This document shows positions 26,460-39,940 of a stretch of 64,000 nt of DNA, in pieces. The first letter of the stretch is position 1; the number at the start of each line of letters is the position of its first letter. The position numbers were made by a program, and so were the translations under genes. Below the pieces are notes generated by a model. It did not search any database. It worked only from the letters and a program-made list of their open reading frames with translations, and was not told the origin of the DNA. The DNA comes from Thiemannella venezuelensis (GTDB lineage Bacteria > Actinomycetota > Actinomycetes > Streptosporangiales > Streptosporangiaceae), in the NCBI RefSeq assembly GCF_014203605.1, contig NZ_JACHJJ010000027.1:33217-97216 (forward strand), written 5' to 3'.

Positions 26460-26487
26460 TGTCACGCGGGAAGGACCGTGATACGTC
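26460..26487 (+). promoter_or_regulatory. ECF41-type promoter of the first sigma gene
   Basis: TGTCACG (26460-26466), 17 bp, CGTC (26484-26487), then 8 nt to the ATG at 26496. The two boxes match the published ECF41 target motif (TGTCACA and CGTC). The identical arrangement precedes the next gene at 27384-27411. The sigma factor therefore appears to transcribe its own gene, as a near-leaderless mRNA. Confidence 0.8.
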
Positions 26488-26495
26488 CTGGATCC

Positions 26496-27383
26496 ATGGC
26501 CGTCGAACGCTTCGAGCACCACCGCGACCTGCTGACCGGGGTCGCCTACCGGATCCTCGGCACCGTCACCGACGCCGAGGACGTCGTACAGGAGGCCTGG
26601 CTGCGCTGGTCGGGCGTGGACGCCGCCGCGGTCGAGAACGACAGGGCCTACCTGATCAGGGTGGTCACCCGGCTCTCCATCGACCGGCTCCGGCGGATCG
26701 GGGCCCGGCGGGAGACCTACGTCGGGGAGTGGCTGCCCGAGCCGGTCGCCACGGCTCCCGGGGTGGCCGAGCGGGTCGAGCTGACCACCTCGGTGGAGCT
26801 CGCGCTGCTGGTGGTGCTGGAGACGCTGTCCCCGCTGGAGCGGGCGGTGTTCGTGCTGCGGGAGGCGTTCGGCCTGCCGTACGCGGAGATCGGCGAGGCG
26901 ATCGGCCGCAGCGAGGCGACGGCCCGGCAGCTCGGGCGGCGGGCCAAGCGGCACGTCGAGGAGGGCCGGCCGAGGTTCGACGTGGACCGGGCCAGGCGCC
27001 GCGAGATCACCGAGCGCTTCATCGGCGCCGCGGCCGGCGGCGACCTGGACGGGCTGATCTCGATGCTCGCCGCCGACGTCACGCTGGTGGCCGACGGGGG
27101 CGGGAAGGTCAAGGCCCCGCTGCGGACCCTGACCGGCGCCGGGAAGGTCACCCGCTTCCTCGCCGCGATCACGACCGAGGCGGGGATCCGGCGGTTCCTG
27201 GAGTCGGCGGGCGCCGAGGCGGCCGGCGGGCTCACCGTGGAGACGGCCGAGGTCAACGGCGCCCCGGCGGTCGTGGCGGCCGCCGGCGGCCGGCCGGTCG
27301 CGGTGTTCTCGCTGGTGGTCAGGGACGGCCTGATCGAGACGATCTACCTGCTCGCCAACCCGGAGAAACTGACGCGTCTGTGA
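26496..27383 (+). CDS. ECF41 (SigJ-like) sigma factor with SnoaL-like domain
   Basis: This 295-residue sigma factor has sigma-2 (LTGVAYRILGTVTDAEDVVQ), the ECF41 linker YVGEWLPEP, sigma-4 (LPYAEIGEAIGRSEATARQL) and a fused NTF2/SnoaL-like regulatory domain with the diagnostic DGGGK and C-terminal NPEKL motifs. In this group the C-terminal domain, not an anti-sigma factor, controls activity. It has its own ECF41 promoter and sits 36 bp before a flavoprotein gene with the same promoter. This matches the ECF41 habit of neighbouring a carboxymuconolactone decarboxylase, oxidoreductase or epimerase gene. Confidence 0.95.
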   Translation: MAVERFEHHRDLLTGVAYRILGTVTDAEDVVQEAWLRWSGVDAAAVENDRAYLIRVVTRLSIDRLRRIGARRETYVGEWLPEPVATAPGVAERVELTTSVELALLVVLETLSPLERAVFVLREAFGLPYAEIGEAIGRSEATARQLGRRAKRHVEEGRPRFDVDRARRREITERFIGAAAGGDLDGLISMLAADVTLVADGGGKVKAPLRTLTGAGKVTRFLAAITTEAGIRRFLESAGAEAAGGLTVETAEVNGAPAVVAAAGGRPVAVFSLVVRDGLIETIYLLANPEKLTRL

Positions 27384-27411
27384 TGTCACGGACGCGTCCG
27401 CGGGCTGCGTC
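27384..27411 (+). promoter_or_regulatory. ECF41-type promoter of the flavoprotein gene
   Basis: TGTCACG (27384-27390), 17 bp, CGTC (27408-27411), 8 nt, ATG 27420: exactly the geometry found before the sigma gene. It starts at the base after the sigma stop codon. The downstream flavoprotein is thus the likely target of the adjacent ECF41 factor. Confidence 0.82.
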
Positions 27412-27419
27412 GTGAGGGC

Positions 27420-28583
27420 ATGAGACGACAGATCACCATCATCGGCGGCGGCCTCGCCGGGCTGACCGCGGCCATCGCGTGCGCCGAGGGCGGCGCCGCC
27501 GTCACCCTCCACGAGGCCCACCGCGCCCTGGGCGGGCGGGCCCGCTCGTCCGCCGCGCCGTACATCGCCAACGACGGCACGCACGTCTTCTACTCCGACG
27601 GCGAGCCGTGGCGCTGGATGGCCGCGCGGAAGCTGGTCCAGCCGTTCCGCAGGCCCACGCTCGGCGAGCTCGCGCGGAGCCGGTTCCGGTACGGCGGCCG
27701 CCTGGCCCTGACCCCTCCCTGGTCTCTGGTGAGCGCGCTCACCAAGCGGAAGGCGGTGGCCCCGGTGGACCGGGACTTCCGGAGCTGGGCCGCCGGGCGT
27801 TTCGGCGAGGAGGCCATGCGGGCGGCCTGCGGGCTCGTCGGCGTCATCACCTACGACGCCGACCCGGGGCGGCTGTCGGCCGCGTTCGTCTGGGAGCGGG
27901 CGCTGCGGGCGAGCGCGCCGCAGTACCCGGCCCCGCGCTACGTGGTCGGCGGCTGGCAGCGGGTGGTCGACCGGATGGCCGATCACGCGCGCGGGCTCGG
28001 CGTGCGGATCGAGACCGGTTCCCGGGCCGACCGCCTGCCGGAGGACACGCCCGTGATCGTCGCGACCTCGCTGGACGCGGCCAGGGCGCTGCTGGGCGAC
28101 GAGTCCCTGCGCTGGGAGAGCGGCCGGGCGGTCCTGCTCGACCTCGGGCTCACCCGGAGTCCGAGGGACGTGTTCTTCGCCTCGGACCTGGACGAGGGCG
28201 GGTTCGTCGAGCAGTACGGCCTGGCGGACCGCACGCTCGCCCCGGCCGGGCACACGCTCGCGCAGCTGGAGATGCCGCTGCGGGCGGGCGAGGCCAGGGC
28301 CGGAGGGCTCGCCCGGCTGGAGCGCCTGGCCGACCTCGCCCTGCCCGGCTGGCGGGAGCGCACCACCTGGCGGCGGGAGTCGGTGGCGAACGGCCGCAGC
28401 GGGGCCCTGGACCTGCCCGGCGTCTCGTGGCGGGACCGCCCGGCGGTCGACCGGGGCGACGGCGTCTGGCTGTGCGGAGACTCCGTCGCCGCTCCCGGTC
28501 TGCTCAGCGAGGTCTCCACGCACAGCGCCCTGGCCGCGGCCCGGGCCGCGCTGCGTGCCGTGGGCGCGCCCGTGGCTGCCTGA
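27420..28583 (+). CDS. FAD-dependent oxidoreductase, target of ECF41 sigma
   Basis: This 387-residue amine-oxidase/phytoene-desaturase-like flavoprotein has an N-terminal ITIIGGGLAGLTAAIACAEG dinucleotide fold, LHEAHRALGGRARSS and a C-terminal GVWLCGDSVAAPGLLSEVST motif for FAD. The substrate is unknown. ATG 27420 lies 8 nt after the CGTC box of an ECF41 promoter, so its mRNA is probably almost leaderless and its expression tied to the sigma factor encoded just upstream. It is the oxidoreductase partner expected of ECF41 loci. Confidence 0.9.
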   Translation: MRRQITIIGGGLAGLTAAIACAEGGAAVTLHEAHRALGGRARSSAAPYIANDGTHVFYSDGEPWRWMAARKLVQPFRRPTLGELARSRFRYGGRLALTPPWSLVSALTKRKAVAPVDRDFRSWAAGRFGEEAMRAACGLVGVITYDADPGRLSAAFVWERALRASAPQYPAPRYVVGGWQRVVDRMADHARGLGVRIETGSRADRLPEDTPVIVATSLDAARALLGDESLRWESGRAVLLDLGLTRSPRDVFFASDLDEGGFVEQYGLADRTLAPAGHTLAQLEMPLRAGEARAGGLARLERLADLALPGWRERTTWRRESVANGRSGALDLPGVSWRDRPAVDRGDGVWLCGDSVAAPGLLSEVSTHSALAAARAALRAVGAPVAA

Positions 28584-36442: not shown

Positions 36443-36507
36443 GACGACGCGGCCGCCGGGAATGTGAGGCGACCGCGCGACCTCACATTCCGGAGGGCCG
36501 TCTCGTC
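36443..36507. promoter_or_regulatory. Back-to-back ECF41-type promoters
   Basis: GGAATGTGAGG and CCTCACATTCC form a perfect 11-bp inverted repeat around 11 bp. Each outward arm reads CCTCACA, and 16 bp further out is CGTC (plus strand 36504-36507; minus strand 36446-36443). Both directions therefore match the ECF41 motif TGTCACA-N16-CGTC except for the first two bases. One promoter points to the sigma gene at 36549, the other to the membrane protein at 36389. Confidence 0.78.
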
Positions 36508-36548: not shown

Positions 36549-37589
36549 ATGACCACCCAGCCCGAGCCGGGAGACGGCCGATCCGACCCGAACCTGAGTG
36601 CGATCATGAGCGAGCGGCGTCATCTGATCAATCTCGCCTACCGCCTCCTCGGTTCCCTGTCCGACGCCGAGGACGTCGTGCAGGAGACCTACGTCCGCTG
36701 GTACGCCATGCCCCGGCAACGGCAGGACGCCGTCGGATCCCCCGGCGCCTGGCTGACGACGGTCGCCGGCCGCATCTGCCTGGACCTGCTCGGCTCGGCC
36801 CGGGCCCGGCGCGAGCGGTACGTGGGCGAATGGATCCCCGAACCGCTGCCCGACCCCGCGGAGTGGACCCCCGGGCCGTCGGACGGCACCGCGGCCGACC
36901 CCGCCGACCGGGTCACGCTCGACGAGTCGGTCAGCATGGCCTTCCTGGTCGTGCTCGAATCCATGACCCCGGCCGAGCGCGTCGCGTTCGTCCTGCACGA
37001 CGTCTTCCGCTACTCCTTCGCCGAAGTGGCGGCGACCGTCGGCCGCACCCCGGCGGCCTGCCGCCAGCTGGCCTCCTCGGCCCGCCGCCGCCTCCGCGCC
37101 GCGCAGGCGTCCACGGCCCCCGCGGCCCGGCAGGCCGGCGTCGTCAGGGACTTCAAGCGGGCCTGGGAGGCCAAGGACATCGACGCCCTCATCGGCCTGC
37201 TCGACCCCGGCGCCACGGCGATCACCGACGGCGGCGGCCTCGCCAGCGCCGGGCTCCGCCCGATCGAGGGCAGCGAGCAGATCGTCCGCTACATCCTCGC
37301 CGTCGCCGGTACGGCGCCCGCCATGACGATCCTGGAACGCACGGTCAACGGCCGGCCCGGCCTGGTGGCCCAGCAGGGCGGCGTCACCGTGACGGTGACG
37401 GCGTTCGACGTCGCAGGCGACCGGATCACGCGCATCTGGGCGGTGCGCAACCCCGACAAGCTCCGGCCCTGGACCGCGGGACCGCGGCAGCACCCGGGTG
37501 TCCCGGGGGAAGACCCGGCAGCTCACCCGAGCGGCCCGGCACCGTTCACCGCGCCGCCCGGCGGTACGGCCGCCGTACGCGAGACCTGA
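36549..37589 (+). CDS. ECF41 (SigJ-like) sigma factor, second copy
   Basis: This 346-residue ECF41 sigma factor has sigma-2 (LINLAYRLLGSLSDAEDVVQ), linker YVGEWIPEP, sigma-4 (YSFAEVAATVGRTPAACRQL), an SnoaL-like domain with DGGG followed by Leu instead of Lys, and NPDKL near residue 303. About 40 Pro-rich residues follow NPDKL, longer than usual; this tail may affect autoregulation. It is a distant paralogue of the sigma at 26496 and its promoter -35 (CCTCACA) differs from that copy's (TGTCACG), suggesting separate regulons. AGAGGAAAG lies upstream of ATG 36549. Confidence 0.94.
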   Translation: MTTQPEPGDGRSDPNLSAIMSERRHLINLAYRLLGSLSDAEDVVQETYVRWYAMPRQRQDAVGSPGAWLTTVAGRICLDLLGSARARRERYVGEWIPEPLPDPAEWTPGPSDGTAADPADRVTLDESVSMAFLVVLESMTPAERVAFVLHDVFRYSFAEVAATVGRTPAACRQLASSARRRLRAAQASTAPAARQAGVVRDFKRAWEAKDIDALIGLLDPGATAITDGGGLASAGLRPIEGSEQIVRYILAVAGTAPAMTILERTVNGRPGLVAQQGGVTVTVTAFDVAGDRITRIWAVRNPDKLRPWTAGPRQHPGVPGEDPAAHPSGPAPFTAPPGGTAAVRET

Positions 37590-38132: not shown

Positions 38133-38828
38133 ATGAAACGTCTCGGGAACCTCGCCGCCGCCGTCCTCCTCGCCGCCGCGGCGTCAATCCTCGCCGCGGC
38201 CCCCGCCTGGGCGGCCACCACCACGATCCACAGGGACAACGCTGCGGGCGCCGCCTACGCGGGCAAGGTGCGGGCGACGCTGATCGCGCCCGTGTCGGTC
38301 TCCACCTCGCTCGGCACCGCCACCTGCAACACCGGCAACATCGACGCCGCCATCCAGTCGGACGGCACCGCCCTGAACGTCTCGGGCTTCTCCTTCAGCA
38401 ACAGCCCCGGACCGGCGTGCCCGAACAGCGCCGGCGGCCAGTCCACCGTGAGCGCGGTGGGACTGCCGTGGAACGGGGGCAACGTCACCTACGGCGCGGT
38501 GAGCGGCGGGCGCGACGCGACCCTGACGCTCACGAATGTCAGGGTCTCCTCGGTGACCACCGGCTGGTTCGGCACCATCACCTGCGTCTACCGGGGATCG
38601 GGGGCCTCCGACAGCATCGTCCTGGACGGCTTCAACGCCGACAACGCCGCCCGCCCCGACCCCTCCGTCGACCAGGCTCAGGCCAGGGCCGTCAACTCCG
38701 GCCTCTCCAAGGTCAGTGGAAGCTTCCTGTGCCCCGGTACGGCCAGATACAGCGCCACCTTCCAGTTGCTCGGCGAGACCGTCGCCGGATCCGGCGTCTA
38801 CGACCAGAAGCTCCACATCACCTCCTGA
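38133..38828 (+). CDS. Secreted protein of unknown function
   Basis: This 231-residue protein has an N-terminal Sec signal peptide (MKRLGNLAAAVLLAAAASIL, cleavage after AWA near residue 28). The mature part is beta-rich with repeated Ser/Thr/Gly and five Cys (TATCNTG, GPACPNS, TITCVYRG, SFLCPGT), suggesting extracellular disulfides. I do not recognise a domain. GGAG lies 7 nt before ATG 38133 and the promoter is strong. The last 31 bases overlap the 3' end of the convergent transposase frame. Confidence 0.82.
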   Translation: MKRLGNLAAAVLLAAAASILAAAPAWAATTTIHRDNAAGAAYAGKVRATLIAPVSVSTSLGTATCNTGNIDAAIQSDGTALNVSGFSFSNSPGPACPNSAGGQSTVSAVGLPWNGGNVTYGAVSGGRDATLTLTNVRVSSVTTGWFGTITCVYRGSGASDSIVLDGFNADNAARPDPSVDQAQARAVNSGLSKVSGSFLCPGTARYSATFQLLGETVAGSGVYDQKLHITS

Positions 38829-39940
38829 CGGCGTTCGCCGCAGCGGTACAGCCCCTCCCCTCCGGGGGATCGGCCCGCCTCCCCGCCTCGCGCGGGAGGG
38901 GCGGGCCACAGCTGCGAGCCCTCCGTCCACAACGCCAGCGCGCACATCGCCTGGTAGACGCAGAGCAGCGCCCACACCTCCTGGGCCACCGTCTCGGCGC
39001 TCCTGGAACGCAGCACAGCCGCCGGGCCGCACCGGCCGGCCCAGGCCATCGCGCCCGCCATGTCCCACCGCCCGGCGTACCGTGCCGACAACTCGGCCAC
39101 GGGCGCCCGCCCCGGATCCGTCAGCGTCGTGACCAGCCAGTCCGTGCCCGGCCGGGGAACGACTCTGACGGGCGCGCCTCCCATCGCGGCGTGCCGGGAC
39201 AGATACGAGCCGTCCCCGAGGCGGTGCTCCACTGCGAGCCCGTCAGCCCCGGCGATCCCCCACAGCAGGTGCGCGCCGGTCGCCGCCGCCGTACGCCACA
39301 GCCCGAACCCCTCGGGACCGGACCGGGCCAGCAGCAGCGCCCCCGGTCCCAGCCTGCGCAGCGCCCGCGCCGCCAGCGTGTGCCGCTCCACCGCCGAGCC
39401 CGCGAACGTCGCGTCCACCAGCGTGTGGGTCCCGTTCTCCGCCACCGCCACGACCCGGACACAGGGGAGAGGCCTTTTCCCGTCCGGGCGGCCGAACGCC
39501 GCGTTGTCGGGGGTCCCCGGTACGGCCAGCGTCATGTCGTCCATCGTGACCGGCCACAGTCCGGCCAAGTCCTCGTCATGGGCACGGGGCGTGGGGACGG
39601 CCACGCGGTGCAGAAGCGCCCGCAGGGGCTCCGCGCCGAGCCGCGCGCGGGCCCGGCTGATCGCCGATGTGCTGGGCGCCTCCCACCGCAGGACCCTGCG
39701 GGAGCGCCACGCGAGCCCGTTCAGGAGCAGGCGCATGACCTGGTCGTAGTTCCTGTCGGGGAACATGCACAGCGCCAGGACGTAGTACATCGTCAGATGG
39801 GCCGGCAAAGCTCGTCGCCGCCTGTCCGCGCACCCGCTGGCCCGTATCACCTCGTCGAGCAGTGACACCGGGAAGGCGGATGTGAGAACACTGATCGACA
39901 AGTGGTCCGCCAGCCGTTCCTCACCCGGCCGGGTCCTCAC
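38798..39940 (-). CDS. Degenerate IS4-family transposase (intact frame, dead active site)
   Basis: The 380-residue frame has the IS4 N-terminal domain (LTSAFPVSLLDEVIRASGCA; LPAHLTMYYVLALCMFPDRN; NGLAWRS) and the DDE fold. The first Asp region is kept (VTMDDMTLAVPGTPDNAAFG, D134/D135). The second, normally LLLADRGF, reads LLLARSGPEGF, so Asp is replaced by Arg206. The YxxRWxIE...K signature reads YAGRWDMAGAMAWAG, so Glu is replaced by Ala295. The C-terminus (after about residue 340) runs into unrelated sequence overlapping the secreted-protein gene. It cannot catalyse transposition by the normal mechanism. It is a decaying element or a domesticated protein. GTG start 39940. Confidence 0.85.
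   Translation of the reverse strand: MRTRPGEERLADHLSISVLTSAFPVSLLDEVIRASGCADRRRRALPAHLTMYYVLALCMFPDRNYDQVMRLLLNGLAWRSRRVLRWEAPSTSAISRARARLGAEPLRALLHRVAVPTPRAHDEDLAGLWPVTMDDMTLAVPGTPDNAAFGRPDGKRPLPCVRVVAVAENGTHTLVDATFAGSAVERHTLAARALRRLGPGALLLARSGPEGFGLWRTAAATGAHLLWGIAGADGLAVEHRLGDGSYLSRHAAMGGAPVRVVPRPGTDWLVTTLTDPGRAPVAELSARYAGRWDMAGAMAWAGRCGPAAVLRSRSAETVAQEVWALLCVYQAMCALALWTEGSQLWPAPPARGGEAGRSPGGEGLYRCGERRQEVMWSFWS

Follow-up and report, generated by a model that had tools for sequence, protein, structure and literature searches.

An inverted repeat in Thiemannella venezuelensis, very probably two divergent promoters read by a single autoregulated sigma factor of the ECF41 type

ECF41 sigma factors carry the signature motifs WLPEP, DGGGK and NPDKL, and their genes typically lie next to a gene for a carboxymuconolactone decarboxylase (CMD), an oxidoreductase or an epimerase. 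Such loci have no gene for an anti-sigma factor, the activity of the sigma being set by its fused domain. An amino acid-to-nucleotide code for ECF sigma factors has reportedly been derived from autoregulated promoters (Todor et al. 2020, PNAS), and the residue-to-base rule described below may be partly known already within that code. The closest described systems are the ECF41 loci of Bacillus licheniformis and Rhodobacter sphaeroides, where a sigma2-sigma4 protein with a SnoaL-like C-terminal extension is associated with a bipartite promoter, consisting of a -35 element (TGTCACA) that was called specific for ECF41, a 16 +/- 1 bp spacer and a CGTC -10 element (Wecke et al. 2012, PMC3426412). 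In 55 loci the genes are arranged divergently (<ECF< >COE>) with the motif before both of them, and ECF41 factors have few targets and very small regulons (PMC3426412). Among structurally characterised factors, the region 2.4 helix of sigma-H and sigma-L has been linked to recognition of the duplex bases that immediately precede the melted -10 (PMC6411747, PMC6372665). In the crystal structure of Mycobacterium tuberculosis sigma-H, N92 hydrogen-bonds the template base of a -10 G:C pair, and SigJ has an arginine at the position of sigma-H N88 (PMC6411747). The sigma-L study left the recognition of C-14 G-13 open and proposed helix 78-82 of Mtb sigma-L as the reader (PMC6372665).

The locus considered here lies in a 64,000-nucleotide stretch of the Thiemannella venezuelensis genome, the whole of which is referred to as the window (Table 1). 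Its sigma factor (36549-37589) shows both domain hallmarks of ECF41, namely regions 2 and 4_2 without region 3 (Pfam Sigma70_r2 54 bits, Sigma70_r4_2 36 bits) and a SnoaL-like extension, the latter scoring 23.2 bits with SnoaL_2, under Pfam's own 27-bit cut-off. The NCBIfam SigJ model PRK09636 scores 300 bits against a cut-off of 271, and the protein matches the SigJ crystal structure (PDB 5xe7) over its full length (E 8e-48). M. tuberculosis SigJ is thus a full-length homologue with equal domain order and an Asp at the position of residue 79, although identity is only moderate and SigJ has Arg at the position of residue 177, where the clade has Ser. In the present sigma, Asp79 lies in region 2.4 and Ser177 in the recognition helix of region 4.2. 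The signature motifs read WIPEP, DGGGL and NPDKL. A preliminary description of this DNA had singled out DGGGL, in place of the DGGGK of the described ECF41 loci, and a 40-residue extra tail. Both are indeed present, but according to the alignment the former is typical of the whole clade rather than peculiar to this copy, whereas the C-terminal tail of about 40 residues is absent from the orthologues and, not being conserved, was dropped as a specificity feature. An IS4-type transposase gene (Nterm_IS4 domain; 38798-39940, minus strand) is found about 1.2 kb downstream of the sigma gene.

Upstream of the sigma gene lies a perfect 11-bp inverted repeat with an 11-bp gap, whose palindromic look arises because two copies of one extended -35 element stand head to head. 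Exactly as first claimed, the sequence CCTCACA-N16-CGTC occurs once per strand, at 36481-36507 (plus) and 36469-36443 (minus), and ribosome-binding-like sequences precede both ATGs (sigma, 36549; membrane protein, 36389). The distance from the -35 to the -10 CGTC falls within the 16 +/- 1 bp of ECF41 promoters, whereas CCTCACA differs from the consensus TGTCACA in its first two bases; the promoter is therefore classed as an ECF41 variant and not as a standard ECF41 promoter. Thus, compared with the loci of Wecke et al., the -35 is CCTCACATTCC instead of TGTCACA, and two such elements form an inverted repeat. Within the window, CCTCACA-N14-19-CGTC has only these two matches (expectation 0.38), and two or more matches arose in 7 of 100 shuffles. 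Perfect 11-bp inverted repeats are common in this GC-rich window, with 61 overlapping start positions against a mean of 3.5 in Markov-1 simulations, but the joint divergent promoter arrangement, present once in the window, did not arise in any of 200 simulated ones. A hairpin with perfect 21-bp arms and a 3-base loop (CGACGAGATCCCGTCCGATCG GAG CGATCGGACGGGATCTCGTCG) is located at 2460-2504. The scan of the genome for the motif that had been proposed as a check returned the two known sites as the only exact matches, and allowing up to one mismatch to the extended motif added five sites with a single mismatch each, apparently chance hits. The idea of a wider regulon was therefore dropped for this genome. 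The lack of a further convincing motif target here matches the very small regulons of ECF41 factors (PMC3426412).

Table 1. Coordinates of the features discussed, numbered from the first nucleotide of the window.
Feature	Position	Strand	Remark
Second ECF41 sigma	26496..27383	+	DGGGK; Arg at residue-177 position; Asp at residue-79 position
TGTCACG-N17-CGTC, putative promoter of second ECF41 sigma	26460..26487	+	8 nt before ATG 26496
TGTCACG-N17-CGTC, putative promoter of FAD-dependent oxidoreductase gene	27384..27411	+	8 nt before ATG 27420
Small membrane protein, 131 aa, four predicted helices	35994..36389	-	Predicted divergent target in this genome
Partner-side -10 CGTC, read on minus strand CGTCGGAC	36443..36446	-	16 bp from -35
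Left arm GGAATGTGAGG	36459..36469	-	Reverse complement CCTCACATTCC is the (extended) -35 of the partner-side promoter
Inter-arm gap, 11 bp	36470..36480	.	Poorly conserved; length variable among relatives
Right arm CCTCACATTCC, sigma-side -35	36481..36491	+	Motif match and conservation in relatives
Sigma-side -10 CGTC (CGTCGGTC)	36504..36507	+	16 bp from -35
ECF41/SigJ-type sigma, 346 aa	36549..37589	+	Sigma region 2, sigma region 4, C-terminal SnoaL-like domain

The repeat was compared with about 130 relatives from the same taxonomic family and from named actinobacteria. The exact repeat with a gap of 7-15 bp is found in 22 of 250 genomes of the family, nearly always with an 11-bp gap, and in nearly all checkable cases among these 22 it adjoins the gene for this sigma. 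Since this set was selected for the repeat, a second set was formed from sigma orthologues taken irrespective of their upstream DNA, whose flanks were then scanned. Both divergent promoters are present in 69 of 84 family orthologues (at least 65% identity), with a -35/-10 spacing of 16 bp on the sigma side in all 69 and on the partner side in 66. The inter-arm gap is 11 bp at 42 of these 69 loci and 0, 1, 3, 8, 9, 10, 12, 61 or 90 bp at the others. Several orthologous loci have one promoter only, either arm having been lost along with its own box, and a recognisable promoter was not found at loci L097, L112, L141 and L156 or at relatives of L156 (about 62-65% identity). In the 66 aligned family loci the partner-side -35 consensus is CCTSACATTYC, and the -10 has GTC in 98-100% and G as the next base in 97%. 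At exactly +16 from most CCTSACA arms stands a YGTCG/A box; most of the other arms show either a box that differs in one base at this place or a box at a shifted distance. On comparative sequence evidence, both promoters are conserved as single units of fixed internal spacing, the gap between them is free, and either can be lost alone.

Conservation in the clade extends past the -35 heptamer: beyond CCTSACA, a T at position 9 and a C at position 11 are kept. The gap is most often 11 bp. Both observations would be expected if the elements were sigma promoters whose overlapping -35 arms serve in addition as a site for another regulator or for the C-terminal domain of the sigma itself, acting as a dimer. 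However, the extra bases are also present where a locus has one promoter only or a gap of another length and are therefore part of each promoter unit, which makes such a double function unlikely, although the preference for 11 bp leaves room for some spacing constraint. A plain operator, to which a repressor or activator would bind as a dimer and beside which the CGTC boxes would be coincidental, is very improbable. It is suggested by the perfect dyad, with 22 bp between the arm centres, and by the near-uniform 11-bp gap in the 22 genomes selected for the repeat. A dimer operator should keep its arm geometry and not necessarily the boxes, and orthologues retaining the repeat without the boxes had been named in advance as favouring an operator. 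The opposite is seen: in the unselected set the half-sites lack the fixed spacing of a dyad operator, their gap ranging from 0 to 90 bp, whereas the arm-to-box spacing is kept. Moreover, the halves are lost independently, the boxes 16 bp outside the arms co-vary with a residue of the sigma, and at the loci examined the sigma gene is the constant neighbour while no other regulator gene is. The operator reading was dropped on the variable arm gap, the independent loss of halves and the sigma-base covariation. The repeat is thus very probably formed by two divergent promoters of one autoregulated ECF41-type sigma, as the preliminary description had preferred. The 16-bp spacing is fixed, the gap is free and the boxes change together with a residue of the adjacent sigma.

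As judged from the aligned loci, the first -10 base of both promoters co-evolves with sigma residue 79. At the 69 two-promoter family loci the two sides agree in this base as C/C (46), T/T (18) or G/G (2), and two of the three discordant pairs are scan artefacts. In the discovery set Asp79 accompanies C in 45/45 cases and Asn79 accompanies T in 18/18. A wider set comprised all loci of at least 60% identity and was scanned for promoters blind to the first -10 base. There Asp79 occurs with C/C at 69 loci (sigma/partner side) and with a single C promoter at 17, Asn79 with T/T at 29 and with G/G or G/T at 3, and Thr79 with G/G at one. Two apparent Asp79 mismatches, at L101 and L117, come from poor matches on the partner side in which the spacing is 15 bp. 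The one real exception to the pairing of Asp79 with CGTC is L037 (genome G217), with TGTC on the sigma side; its divergent partner-side gene encodes another ECF41 sigma, in which the equivalent of residue 79 is Asn, and the TGTC box may serve this neighbour. In named genomes outside the discovery set, all 25 Asp79 loci with a promoter have C and none of the 7 Asn79 loci does. Similarly, distant ECF41 sigmas with a recognisable promoter have Asp with CGTC in nearly all cases, the exceptions being L222 (Asn, GGTC on one side), L241 (Glu, GGTC on both) and L227 (Asp, a poor GGTT match). The best tree, built without column 79, implies about 10 changes of residue 79 and about 9 of each first -10 base, of which only three independent switches fall on well-supported branches, all three concordant, the protein tree of about 300 columns being weakly resolved. 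Pagel-type likelihood ratios for correlated evolution (4 df) are 70.6 for the residue and the sigma side, 79.6 for the residue and the partner side and 65.2 for the two sides, while a control position in the -35 gives 7.3. In a scan of 175 variable sigma columns on the tree, column 79 reaches 71.4, with a runner-up of 28.5 and a median of 5.1.

That the two arms agree through template switching or gene conversion, and not through one sigma reading both, is very improbable: spacers are slightly more alike within a locus than between loci (0.551 against 0.521), but this effect is tiny compared with that at the first -10 base (0.971 against 0.536), for which reason arm homogenisation was dropped as the main cause, and in addition the C/G position of the -35 is not matched between the sides, their agreement persists at gaps of 61-90 bp and the first -10 base tracks a sigma residue that is encoded elsewhere.

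The position of residue 79 is compatible with direct reading of the base by the autoregulated sigma. In our own alignment W68, R75 and D79 correspond by a constant offset to W81, N88 and N92 of sigma-H, R75 agrees with the arginine of SigJ at the N88 position, and D79 aligns (phmmer) inside helix 78-82 of sigma-L. However, sigma-H has Asn at the equivalent position, and this residue contacts the adjacent pair, the G of GTT (PMC6411747), which lies directly downstream of the first -10 base, whereas the identity of residue 79 tracks the base preceding that G. The switch would have a simple chemical basis if Asp accepted a hydrogen bond from the amino group of cytosine and Asn gave one to the carbonyl of thymine.

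The -35 element also differs between ECF41 groups. Among 124 sigmas of the CC type (CCTSACA), residue 177 is Ser in 118 and Arg in none, while Arg177 is present in 14 of 16 sigmas of the TG type (TGTCACA), as well as in the second ECF41 sigma of the window. This supports, at the -35, the earlier suggestion that the two factors follow separate promoter codes, and makes residue 177 a candidate for what determines the first two bases of the -35. As the split goes back mostly to a single ancient event, it is a lead rather than a test. The TGTCACG-N17 element that had been reported for the second locus is found there twice, before the sigma gene and before the FAD-dependent oxidoreductase gene that comes after it (27420-28583), and the equal geometry and position of both suggest nearly leaderless transcripts (Table 1).

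The divergent slot beside the sigma gene holds a membrane protein and not a CMD, oxidoreductase or epimerase gene. In this genome the membrane protein is the partner, as proposed initially, but in relatives it is one of at least eight families that occupy the slot: LUD domain proteins (35 loci), CMD (18), the four-helix protein of the window (15), flavodoxin-like reductases (9), NADPH-dependent FMN reductase (5), YceI (4), DoxX-like (4 and one more), Pyr_redox_2 (4), SnoaL and others. LUD, YceI, DoxX, flavodoxin-like and four-helix membrane proteins thus set these partners apart from those of the loci of Wecke et al. In the sole other species of the genus compared, a CMD gene is in the slot and a homologue of the membrane protein is encoded downstream of the sigma gene. 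Going by their family names, most partners would point to redox, quinone or electrophile chemistry. The membrane protein is modelled with fair confidence (pLDDT 85.7) as four helices hydrophobic enough for membrane spanning; no Pfam or NCBIfam family, including anti-sigma families, could be assigned, and a fold search of the model against the PDB gave no match with E <0.4, so that a fold-based function was dropped. Its exchange among relatives would argue against an anti-sigma role. Residues invariant in the four-helix family include H44, WRPGG at 66-70 and H101, which would be compatible with cofactor binding, though this is only a guess. Two further four-helix paralogues are encoded in the same genome (G000 C8:125653-126018 and C28:71946-72293; L017, L018), and the promoter motif of the sigma is absent from both of these contigs.

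In the mechanism proposed for the autoregulated sigma, the sigma itself would bind both promoters, and its holoenzyme would read CCTCACA(TTC)-N16-CGTC on each strand independently, driving its own gene rightward and the partner gene, here that of the four-helix membrane protein, leftward, with transcription predicted to start about 7 nt beyond each CGTC. Back-to-back polymerases would nearly touch at a gap of 11 bp and should collide at a gap of 0, so simultaneous occupancy is probably not required. Asp79, the equivalent of sigma-H N92, would read C:G at the first -10 base and Asn would read T:A there, while loss of Arg177 may have released the TG of the classical ECF41 -35. The SnoaL-like C-terminal domain would gate the sigma on a signal, probably a redox- or electrophile-related one. 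Taken together, it seems likely, if less firmly so than the promoter assignment itself, that in this actinobacterial ECF41 subclade a promoter slot addressed by its own sigma stays fixed while the effector is freely exchanged, that repeated single switches at residue 79 (Asp with CGTC, Asn with TGTC, sometimes G) have dragged both promoters along, and that an earlier loss of Arg177 changed TGTCACA to CCTCACA, which would give two orthogonal ECF41 promoter codes within a single genome.

What was suspected to be an operator thereby becomes a natural experiment, in which one sigma and two promoters would be forced to change together and the tracking of a base by an amino acid can be read without bench work. 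Residue 79 offers a concrete one-substitution test of -10 CG recognition, and the arrangement suggests orthogonal promoter parts. It would also mean that the target gene can be replaced without change of the regulator and its promoter.
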